Assembly: GCF_900141885.1 (NCBI RefSeq)
Contig: NZ_FQYY01000004.1
Span: forward strand, 63,277-127,276
Direction: 5' to 3'
Length of the DNA: 64,000 nt
Origin: Mesonia phycicola
GTDB taxonomy: Bacteria; Bacteroidota; Bacteroidia; Flavobacteriales; Flavobacteriaceae
The translations under genes and the position numbers were made by a program. Of the stretch, positions 37,170 through 41,432 are shown piece after piece (the first letter of the stretch is position 1; the number at the start of each line of letters is the position of its first letter). Under the pieces are notes generated by a model. That model was not told where the DNA came from. It saw nothing but the letters and a program-made list of their open reading frames with translations, and did no database searches.

Positions 37170-37447
37170 AACGTCATCCCAAACTTGATTTGGGATCTCA
37201 TCCACATTTTCACACAACCACTTTTAATCTTTTGATGCGATGCTGAATCAACTACCCCATGACGATAAACATTCACTTTACCTTCCTAAAAACGTCATCC
37301 CAAACTTGATTTGAGATCACACATATATTTTCAAGTAATAGGTTTTATTCTTTTGATGTGATGCTGAATCAAGTTCAGCATGACGAAGAGAATTCTCTTT
37401 ATTTTCAAAGTAACGTCATCCCAAACTTGATTTGGGATCTCATCTAA
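37170..37447. repeat. Palindromic repeat array downstream of the GIY-YIG gene
   Basis: Three copies of a short palindrome lie at 37171, 37292 and 37412. Each reads CGTC, then ATCCCAAA-CTTGA-TTTGGGAT (the copy at 37292 has one change), spaced about 120 bases apart. Between them lie copies of a second motif, GATGCGATGCTGAATC, ending in CATGACG. The last palindrome touches the stop codon of the nuclease gene. The units between the first and second palindromes match those on the other side of the gene almost base for base. Confidence 0.85.
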
Positions 37448-37729
37448 TTAAATTAGTTCTATTGTTTTTAATTCAGGATTTTTCTTTTTAACTAGATCAA
37501 TTTTCCAATCTTTCTTCCAACTCTTTAATTGTTTTTCTCTTTTAATTGCTTGTTGAATATCTAAGAATTCTTCATAATAAATTAAATATTTCAAATTGTA
37601 TTTTGCAGTAAATAAAGAACCTTTCCCTAGTTGATGTTCCGCAATTCGCTTAGTTAATTCACTTGTAATTCCAATATAAAATGTAGTTCTATATTTATTG
37701 GTTAAAATATAAACATATGAAGTTTTCAT
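37448..37729 (-). CDS. GIY-YIG nuclease, repeat-associated
   Basis: The protein has 93 residues from the ATG at 37729. A longer frame begins at 37795 but its first 22 codons are repeat sequence, so I prefer the internal start. The single-domain GIY-YIG nuclease is complete: YVYILTNKYRTTFYIGITSE, then LTKRIAEHQLGKGSLFTAKY, LIYYEEFLDIQQAIKREKQL and KSWKKDWKIDLVKKKNPEL. The catalytic Tyr, Arg (LTKRIAEH) and Glu (AIKREKQLK) are present. Such small proteins are widespread and often annotated as excinuclease-like. The gene is packed between palindromic repeats on both sides, as if gene and repeats form one mobile unit. Confidence 0.85.
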   Translation of the reverse strand: MKTSYVYILTNKYRTTFYIGITSELTKRIAEHQLGKGSLFTAKYNLKYLIYYEEFLDIQQAIKREKQLKSWKKDWKIDLVKKKNPELKTIELI

Positions 37730-37735
37730 TCTAAA

Positions 37736-38046
37736 TTGTTTTATATATATATGATGCGATGCTGAATCGAGTACCCCATGACGATAAACATTCACTTTAC
37801 CATCCTAAAAACGTCATCCCAAACTTGATTTGGGATCTCATTCACATTTTCACACAACCACTTTTAATCTTTTGATGCGATGCTGAATCAAGTACCCCAT
37901 GACGGTAAACATTCATTTTACCTTCCTAAAAACGTCATCCCAAACTTGATTTGGGATCTCATCCACATTTTCACACAACCACTTTTAATCTTTTGATGCG
38001 ATGCTGAAATCATAGATTCAACTTAGTTAATCAAGTACCCCATGAC
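37736..38046. repeat. Palindromic repeat array upstream of the GIY-YIG gene
   Basis: Two palindromes CGTCATCCCAAACTTGATTT (37811 and 37932 onward) alternate with three copies of GATGCGATGCTGAA (37752, 37875, 37997) that end in CCCCATGACG. The repeat period is about 120 bases. The copy next to the gene reads into the nuclease frame. The third copy of the second motif has a 21-base insertion before its CCCCATGACG end. Confidence 0.85.
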
Positions 38047-38074
38047 GAATAGAAAGTGACTATTATCTGGAAAT

Positions 38075-39396: not shown

Positions 39397-39545
39397 TATG
39401 ATGCGATGCTGAATCAAGTTCAGCATGACGAGTATTTATTCTCCGTCATCCCGGACCTGATCCGGGATCTCATCCGATTAGTTCTATTGTCTTTAATCTT
39501 TTGATATAATGTTGAAATTAAAACTTCGAATAGCTCAGTGTGACA
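39397..39545. repeat. Repeat unit with a GIY-YIG gene remnant, hisF-hisIE gap
   Basis: The order is GATGCGATGCTGAATC ending CAGCATGACG (39401-39430), the palindrome CGTCATCCCGGACCTGATCC (39444 onward), then a stretch whose minus strand reads LKTIELIG and a stop (39468-39494). This matches the LKTIELI end of the nuclease at 37448. A further motif, CTCAGTGTGACA, ends the block. The nuclease tail keeps the same position relative to the palindrome as in the intact copy. Confidence 0.75.
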
Positions 39546-40367: not shown

Positions 40368-40553
40368 TGATGCGATGCTGTCCCTCGACTCCGCTCGGGA
40401 TGATCAAGAAGTTCAGTATGACGTACTCTAGTTAACTTTTAAAATTCGTCATCCCGGACTTGATCCGGGATCTCATCCTGTTATATTTTAAGTGAATAAA
40501 TATCTAGATGAAGTTCAAATAATACTTCGACAAGCTCAGTGTGACAATTTCAC
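40368..40553. repeat. Repeat units in the hisA-hisF gap
   Basis: Motif GATGCGATGCTG, followed by a CCTCGACTCCGCTCGGGATG hairpin-like variant and CAGTATGACG (40369-40421), precedes the palindrome ATCCCGGA-CTTGA-TCCGGGAT (40452-40472). A third motif, ACTTCGACAAGCTCAGTGTG, closes the block (40529-40548). Confidence 0.8.
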
Positions 40554-41318: not shown

Positions 41319-41432
41319 TCGTCATTCCAGACTTGATCTGGGATCGCATTGAATATTTATTTAATTAAAATATAATCATGATGTGATGCTGTCTCTCGAC
41401 TCCGCTCGGGATGACTAAGAAGTTCTGAATCA
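41319..41432. repeat. Degenerate repeat unit in the hisH-hisA gap
   Basis: A decayed palindrome CGTCATTCCAGACTTGATCT (41321 onward) is followed by GATGTGATGCTG with the CTCGACTCCGCTCGGGATGA variant (41381-41415). The order palindrome then second motif is the reverse of that in the hisA-hisF gap. Confidence 0.7.

Follow-up and report, generated by a model that had tools for sequence, protein, structure and literature searches.

Short palindromic repeats are found, too, in genomes with no detectable RAYT and raise the question of how they spread there; Mesonia phycicola offers such a case, with a locus at which a gene for a small GIY-YIG nuclease is embedded in such repeats. The locus lies in the window, the whole 64,000-nt stretch of DNA that was analysed. 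A sequence-only reading had proposed a mobile nuclease–repeat unit here, parallel to REP sequences and their RAYT transposases and with a different class of enzyme. We propose that nuclease gene and hairpins belong together as a cognate pair in which the GIY-YIG enzyme would cut the hairpin as single-stranded DNA and which would work like REP and RAYT, a reading to which we give a probability of about 0.58. A nuclease–hairpin pair of this kind would supply the enzyme that the repeats otherwise lack.

The nuclease gene and its protein

Only one small GIY-YIG gene was found in the Mesonia genome that holds the window (G000; 3.28 Mb, contig 21), two further PF01541 matches in this genome lying in frames that are 598 and 455 codons long. 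Its open reading frame spans 37448–37795 on the minus strand and the start is most likely the ATG at 37729, giving a protein of 93 amino acids (37448–37729, minus strand); an alternative GTG start could possibly extend it to 37795. The assignment as a GIY-YIG nuclease made from the sequence was correct, as the protein matched Pfam PF01541 with an E of 1.7e-13 (51.1 bits, cut-off 22.6) as its one Pfam domain. The GIY-YIG domain is marked by conserved Tyr, Gly, Arg and Glu residues. Y7, Y18, G20, R28, H32 and E65 were invariant across 49 nuclease sequences, and these conserved residues together with the Pfam match place the protein in the GIY-YIG superfamily. An AlphaFold2 model (pLDDT 94.4) best matched the UPF0213 protein 1zg2, the sole PDB structure at E ≤ 0.001, followed by Slx1 and then by the N-terminal domain of UvrC, and a sequence search of the PDB gave 1zg2 and 1ywl as top matches. 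The names used here for neighbouring genes (TPK, DUF2461, the his genes, epimerase, four-helix bundle) are a reading of their translations and not database-derived.

The hairpin repeat in the window

The repeats around the gene share one plan, GTC-[8-bp stem]-5-nt loop-[stem], with orientation alternating within the cluster at the nuclease. Hairpins A and B are opposite in orientation but of one kind: both follow CGTC-[8-bp stem]-CTTGA-[stem]-C, and their stems are ATCCCAAA (A) and ATGCTGAA (B). The pattern CGTCATN6CTTGAN6ATC, with at most two mismatches, was matched 16 times in the window, and 14 of these matches fall between 37172 and 41345. Chance alone would give 0.22, and the largest count in 100 shuffles was 1, which bears out the earlier observation of repeats at this place. 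The palindrome and the 'second motif' then described are both present, the second being the same hairpin in the opposite orientation (CGTCATGCTGAACTTGATTCAGCATC); its hairpin nature was hidden because four of its five copies (37239, 37758, 37879 and 38022) have GGGGTA for the GCTGAA arm.

All but one of the hairpins that follow are pattern matches. The cluster opens with a hairpin A at 37172–37197 (plus strand; CGTCAT-CCCAAA-CTTGA-TTTGGG-ATC; fold -6.6 kcal/mol, z -3.9), a hairpin B with a damaged 5' arm (GGGGTA) at 37239–37264 (minus), a hairpin A with a single arm mismatch at 37293–37318 (plus) and an intact hairpin B at 37360–37385 (minus; CGTCAT-GCTGAA-CTTGA-TTCAGC-ATC; fold -7.0 kcal/mol, z -4.6). 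The nuclease gene lies between inverted palindromes, a hairpin A at 37414–37439 (plus) forming its downstream flank and an arm-damaged hairpin B at 37758–37783 (minus) its upstream flank. The stop codon, which had been said to abut the palindrome, is 8 nt from the 26-nt core and 3 nt from the conserved CTCATC tail. Beyond the gene stand hairpins A at 37812–37837 and 37933–37958 (both plus), a hairpin B with a damaged arm at 37879–37904 (minus) and, read from the sequence, a hairpin B with an insert of about 22 nt in its loop and a damaged arm at 37995–38047 (minus). The repeats had been placed within 37170–38046; hairpins in fact continue to about 41.3 kb, with weak matches to 43.5 kb. A hairpin B at 39405–39430 (minus) and a hairpin of A type (CCCGGA) at 39444–39469 (plus) lie between hisIE and hisF, another of A type at 40447–40472 (plus) between hisF and hisA, and a third with an imperfect stem at 41320–41345 (plus; fold -3.8 kcal/mol, z -1.9) between hisA and hisH. 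When folded as DNA, four of five tested hairpins (two of them identical in sequence) formed the 8-bp stem with energies between -6.6 and -8.4 kcal/mol.

A longer repeat of 199 nt occurs at 37170, 37291, 37689 and 37810 (spacing 121, 398 and 121 nt), with identities to the first copy of 100, 69, 66 and 90%. The description as near-identical that was first given thus suits the first copy and the last and no others. The unit of 121 bp forms a tandem at the nuclease locus, where alone it has near-complete matches; away from the nuclease/his stretch mostly about 30–40 nt of it match, and it was rejected as the mobile unit for this reason. Some matches of 73–76% over 70–100 nt were found in other genomes.

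Association of hairpin and nuclease across loci

A contig scan confirmed 568 homologous nuclease loci, the best 80 of which, by their titles mostly Bacteroidota, were compared; because many share neighbours, these were collapsed to 43 synteny groups. A hairpin lay within 300 bp of the gene in 68 of these best 80 of 568 loci and in 37 of the 43 synteny groups, as against a mean of 2.5% and a maximum of 10% of control windows more than 1.5 kb away (79 usable loci). Around the same best 80 of 568 loci hairpins numbered 4.8 per kb in the first 250 bp from the gene, 0.34 per kb at 250–500 bp and no more than 0.16 per kb in any bin farther out, and the 1.39 Mb covered held 274 hairpins compared with 7 in one mononucleotide shuffle. 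Both flanks shared a repeat (score ≥ 18) for 37 of the 55 scorable nucleases among the best 80 of 568, compared with 17 of 400 scorable neighbouring genes, the 55 being what was left after six loci at which one side had no called gene, and 19 with a gap below 40 nt, had been dropped; control genes with gaps below 40 nt were likewise dropped.

One explanation for hairpins of this sort is that they are terminators or mRNA stabilisers whose clustering is a coincidence of intergenic space. They do fold into hairpins, and the window copies are all outside long open reading frames, but several stand between co-directional genes of an apparent his operon, only 2.5% of control windows have one and, as set out below, the hairpins are copied as discrete units. 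Transcription termination is disfavoured as a main role by the position between co-directional genes, and we regard the explanation as a whole as highly improbable.

The stems co-vary. In 89 distinct sequences from the best 80 of 568 loci, 77.7% of stem positions pair Watson–Crick, against 55% (maximum 59%) with reshuffled 3' arms; the test was anchored on GTCA and the loop only, so that pairing was unselected, and the sequences are related, a kinship that the control leaves in. At 37 of the 48 two-sided loci (best 80 of 568) the nearest hairpins on the two sides are inverted, 31 of these loci having the arrangement of the window and 6 its reverse; the remaining 11 loci are parallel. Compared with even odds this gives p 2e-4, although the loci are not all independent. 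The window's flank orientation is the majority pattern in 18 of 28 synteny groups drawn from these best 80 of 568 loci.

That the gene always sits between these motifs holds for most loci and not for all, as 12 of the best 80 of 568 have no strict hairpin within 300 bp, so that nucleases without the repeat, which the sequence-only reading had named as telling against it, do exist in part. The flanks of 8 of these 12 share some other repeat at a score of at least 16, in a comparison run without a control and in which two loci had too-short flanks. One of the 12, L116, has a second gene copy 1.6 kb away, and gene copying without a strict hairpin therefore occurs. Among the best 80 of 568 loci (43 synteny groups) the nuclease gene often occupies one and the same position in several genera, and its inheritance is therefore largely vertical. 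The idea of gene and repeats hopping freely as one unit is not supported, since synteny groups keep the gene at the same place and the 121-bp unit is not dispersed.

Co-occurrence across genomes

Co-occurrence was assessed in 199 Flavobacteriaceae genomes from 198 genera. The nuclease (E ≤ 1e-20) was present in 63, the repeat in 72 and both in 48 (Fisher p 2e-15); with the nuclease at E ≤ 1e-25 the repeat was found in 32 of 33 genomes compared with 40 of the 166 others (Fisher p 7e-16), though these p values overstate independence because the genomes are related. The odds ratio for one or more repeats rose from 15 at E ≤ 1e-20 to 101 at 1e-25 and to infinity at 1e-30. Five of the 199 genomes have at least five repeats and no nuclease. 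In one genome of the family with no nuclease match at E ≤ 1e-20 (G178:C14:272910-277136) a run of hairpins was seen, four of them with a period of about 139 bases.

The strict repeat occurs in 8 of 16 Mesonia genomes, with 32 matches in G000 (0 for the reversed pattern), 9 in G001, 9 in G002, 7 in G003, 36 in G013, 14 in G006 and 29 in G012, the highest count in the genus being 47; all are lower bounds, as the pattern has one fixed loop. Ten of the 32 in G000 fall within 4.2 kb at the nuclease. A close nuclease (64–100% identity) is present in five of the eight repeat-bearing genomes. G001, G006 and G012 have strict repeats but only distant nucleases of 49% identity or less, and these genomes, with the 40 of 166 above, are in part the repeats without a nuclease that had been put forward as a refutation of the pairing.

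Another possibility is that a RAYT (Y1) transposase moves the hairpins, which would then be REPs, and that the nuclease is incidental. The anatomy is REP-like with alternating orientation, and Y1 family matches were found in 8 of 16 Mesonia genomes, including the repeat-bearing G005, G006 and G012. However, no Y1 transposase (PF01797) match was found in G000, G001, G002, G003 or G013 despite their 32, 9, 9, 7 and 36 repeats, and no hairpin occurred in the 2.0–3.4 kb fetched for each of the 15 Y1 loci known from the genus genomes. A RAYT was therefore rejected as the source of the repeats in G000, for which this explanation is largely refuted, and we give it hardly any weight in general.

Discrete copying of the hairpin

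In a comparison of the window with five Mesonia regions, most hairpins stayed close to one shared position, not more than about 10 kb away, and a few weak matches fell outside; the regions of G012 and G001 have no nuclease there. In the six regions examined hairpin B carries discrete loop inserts. The 29 rows with a normal loop represent 22 distinct hairpins and 7 seen again on the other strand, and a further 2 hairpins had a 22-nt insert and 4 a 24-nt insert, with one overlapping row, compared with none in five shuffles. The 22-nt-insert hairpin was found at 17 places (at most three mismatches in 39 nt) in 8 Mesonia genomes, the same 8 that carry the strict repeat, with up to 5 per genome; the window copy at 37995–38047 is too damaged to count among them. 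When these copies were aligned, likeness ran about 8 nt to the left and about 6 nt to the right of the core and then dropped to 0.24–0.36, pairwise identity being 0.76 at -5 to -1, 0.54 at -10 to -6 and 0.81 at +40 to +44. The 39-nt core is alike by selection. Because similarity stops just outside those ends, the copied unit is GATGNGAT-hairpin-ATGACG. Flanks were similar in two pairs only among the 17 places, one being a duplication in G002 and the other shared by G005 and G013. The hairpin is thus copied as a defined short unit, a result that does not in itself indicate the enzyme responsible.

The 24-nt insert resembles another repeat family (CTCGACTCCGCTCGGGATGA), seen in the window at about 40374 and 43445 and at two places in the G005 region. 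At these four places a second repeat thus sits inside the hairpin loop, though the only small GIY-YIG gene of G000 is of another clade.

Empty and filled sites can be compared at hisF–hisA, where, between species that are 87–93% identical in aligned parts, the hairpin is present in G005 and absent in G012 and G013. As G000 and G002 also have one, loss of this hairpin is as likely as gain, and presence or absence between close species fits insertion and deletion alike; the comparison proposed by the sequence-only reading did reveal such differences, but it does not tell insertion from deletion.

The gene itself is caught up in the rearrangements

In the interval between the TPK-like and DUF2461-like genes, hairpins and nuclease are present in G000, G013, G005 and G002 (676–965 nt). 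At the same interval in G012 one palindrome replaces palindrome–nuclease–palindrome (257 nt), a nuclease-less allele bounded by the repeat that is compatible with gain or loss, and in G001 the gene is absent and the hairpins have decayed. Elsewhere the gene has been multiplied: G011:C8 has the order palindrome–gene–palindrome–gene–palindrome with a period of 423, and neighbouring copies also occur at L042 and L060, the L060 copy having an in-frame stop. A mini-element at L059 has the outer ends of the full unit that lies 0.5 kb away and keeps the first 34 nt of the open reading frame (32 identical), the remainder being missing.

Fragments of the 3' end of the gene are also found beside hairpins. 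At L048 an identical copy of the gene's final 21 nt, together with a palindrome, stands upstream of the gene, and in the window 20 of these 21 nt lie at 39477–39497 (minus strand) beside the hairpin at 39444–39469, where 0.08 matches would be expected at three or fewer mismatches. A diverged form of this fragment is present at the same place in G012. Four cases of rayt gene 3' ends caught beside palindromes are given in the portion of Nunvar et al. (2010; PMC2817692) drawn on here.

Other small GIY-YIG clades

Small GIY-YIG matches in Mesonia number 53, in 15 of 16 genomes. A distant clade lies close beside tRNA genes, at L028, L133, L134 and L140 (tRNA-Asp), L029 and L137 (tRNA-Arg), L139 (tRNA-Asn) and L129 (tRNA-Leu), and on its opposite flank the gene often has what by eye is a copy of part of a tRNA. 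Three small GIY-YIG matches stand in tandem in G014:C1 (293823, 294308 and 294791), and both flanks of the third, L133, have a tRNA-Asp-like 3' part and a GTCATCCCCAAG hairpin, a further gene start following. Another clade is found inside a four-helix-bundle-like open reading frame (L017 and L138) or at the 5' end of an epimerase-like gene (L132, L135 and L136), with ends that resemble CCYGTGAAAT and ATTTCACAGG; at L132 the nuclease has on either side a 64-nt stretch with which the epimerase-like gene begins. Further Mesonia clades are flanked by other repeat families, for example CTCGACTCCGCTCGA, CTTCGACAAGCTCAG, GCGGCTGAGTG and TTCCTGCGCAGGCAGGAA, the loci with such families being L015, L016 and L123; L026, L125 and L128; L024 and L121; L027, L031, L122, L126 and L127; L011 and L012; and L022, L023 and L030. 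At L114, whose record bears the title of a Helicobacter cetorum MAG, many GTCATTGCGGGCTTGACC-type repeats make up the flanks of the nuclease frame as well as its 3' part.

Across 45 Mesonia matches the similarity of flank repeats follows that of the nucleases (Mantel rho 0.27, 0 of 999 permutations), a result inflated because close Mesonia homologues owe some of their likeness in the flanks to synteny; L018, L019, L130, L131, L137 and three matches without a fetched locus of their own were left out. This bears on the view that the nuclease is a homing-type passenger using older, independent hairpins as target sites. The single palindrome at the site of the nuclease-less G012 allele would fit that view, as would the existence of repeats without a nuclease and the other small GIY-YIG clades beside tRNA genes or inside protein genes, but repeat and nuclease co-occur and nuclease type pairs with repeat type in the Mantel test, and we consider a passenger of this kind improbable.

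A model for nuclease-driven spread of the hairpin

The parallel with REP and RAYT under another class of enzyme has gained support beyond the window, from flanking hairpins in 68 of the best 80 of 568 loci in many genera, from co-occurrence, stem covariation, discrete copying and the lack of a Y1 match in G000, and from the existence of a nuclease-less allele, tandem units and an internally deleted unit. We propose that the hairpin is a short mobile repeat and that the nuclease encoded between two hairpins would recognise its own hairpin and cut it while single-stranded, for example during replication or on incoming transforming DNA. The cut would be repaired or re-replicated against other copies, through which hairpins would spread, amplify or vanish, often near the gene, and its repair would sometimes drag gene ends along. 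Because repair against other copies would spread hairpins, the system would work like REP and its RAYT transposase. Recognition and cutting of the hairpin, a single-stranded substrate and copying driven by the nuclease are what we infer as most likely. Perhaps, and here we are more tentative, this is an instance of a transposase-free REP system in which a GIY-YIG nuclease spreads hairpins as discrete units, with full units, mini-elements without the gene interior and lineage-specific pairs, and with sister clades in the same genus on other repeats, tRNA genes and protein genes.

Comparison with known systems

The Mesonia protein resembles UPF0213/YhbQ-like small GIY-YIG proteins, 1zg2 and 1ywl being nearest by sequence and 1zg2 by fold, and we know of no repeat assigned to these two solved UPF0213 proteins. 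How well such a unit is described had been left uncertain. A literature text search, which covered the largest result lists in part, found no paper on the pairing of a GIY-YIG nuclease with palindromic repeats; pairs of nuclease and repeat have, however, reportedly been described already as Ssn/NTS. The Ssn family of site-specific ssDNA GIY-YIG nucleases, with Neisseria SsnA and its NTS repeats, is said to have been set out by Chenal et al. in Nat Commun in 2025. These are reportedly small single-domain enzymes, with the repeat round the gene and elsewhere and with homologues that each have their own repeat, and they are said to cut single-stranded DNA only, site-specifically, and to modulate natural transformation. 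The Mesonia pair appears to fit this kind in its small single-domain protein (93 amino acids, one Pfam domain, a confident model) and in its gene-linked repeat, which surrounds the gene and is dispersed in the genome and would here be the putative substrate. The preference of the nuclease for single-stranded DNA in our model is taken over from what is reported for Ssn and is presumed by analogy.

One alternative that follows from this likeness is that an Ssn-type nuclease cuts the hairpin as single-stranded DNA and tunes transformation or recombination, while the copying of the hairpins would have a different cause, for instance gene conversion or an enzyme since lost. The reported Ssn/NTS precedent would favour it, as would repeats that persist in genomes without a close nuclease and a gene held at conserved places; a ComEC-type competence domain is present in G000 and lends weak support, being present likewise in 10 of 14 control genomes. 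Repeat presence tracks the nuclease across genera, however, and the gene itself is caught up in RAYT-like traces (3'-end fragments and the mini-element), and we hold this alternative to be rather unlikely. Sharp-ended hairpin copying, the mini-element, captured gene ends and compensatory stems are seen here and are not known to have been reported for Ssn.

The likenesses to REP/BIME and RAYT, as far as the portion of Nunvar et al. (2010; PMC2817692) drawn on here describes them, are inverted flanking palindromes, alternating arrays, a correlation of gene and repeat, accumulation near the gene and a gene 3' end between palindromes. The enzyme differs, being GIY-YIG and not a Y1 (HUH) transposase, and the pair falls outside the defining enzyme criterion of REP/RAYT. 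The presence of the gene correlates with the repeat across 199 genomes, as it does for RAYT and REP. RAYT genes 'always' have inverted flanks, whereas those of the Mesonia-type nuclease are inverted at 37 of 48 two-sided loci (best 80 of 568) and so not universally, and REPs usually exceed 100 copies per genome, compared with 32 strict matches, a lower bound, in G000. In Neisseria the dRS3/NIME elements, inverted repeats of the form ATTCCC-N8-GGGAAT, likewise form intergenic arrays; stem and loop differ, and in the portion of PMC3898611 used here the enzyme to which they are linked is a phage integrase and not a nuclease. Set beside these systems, the mobile-element anatomy and the direct evidence of hairpin copying in genomes with no RAYT match may be new. 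If our reading is true, it would extend the logic of mobile elements to a class of nuclease not usually seen as a mobility enzyme, and would offer many natural nuclease–site pairs from which specificity could be read out.
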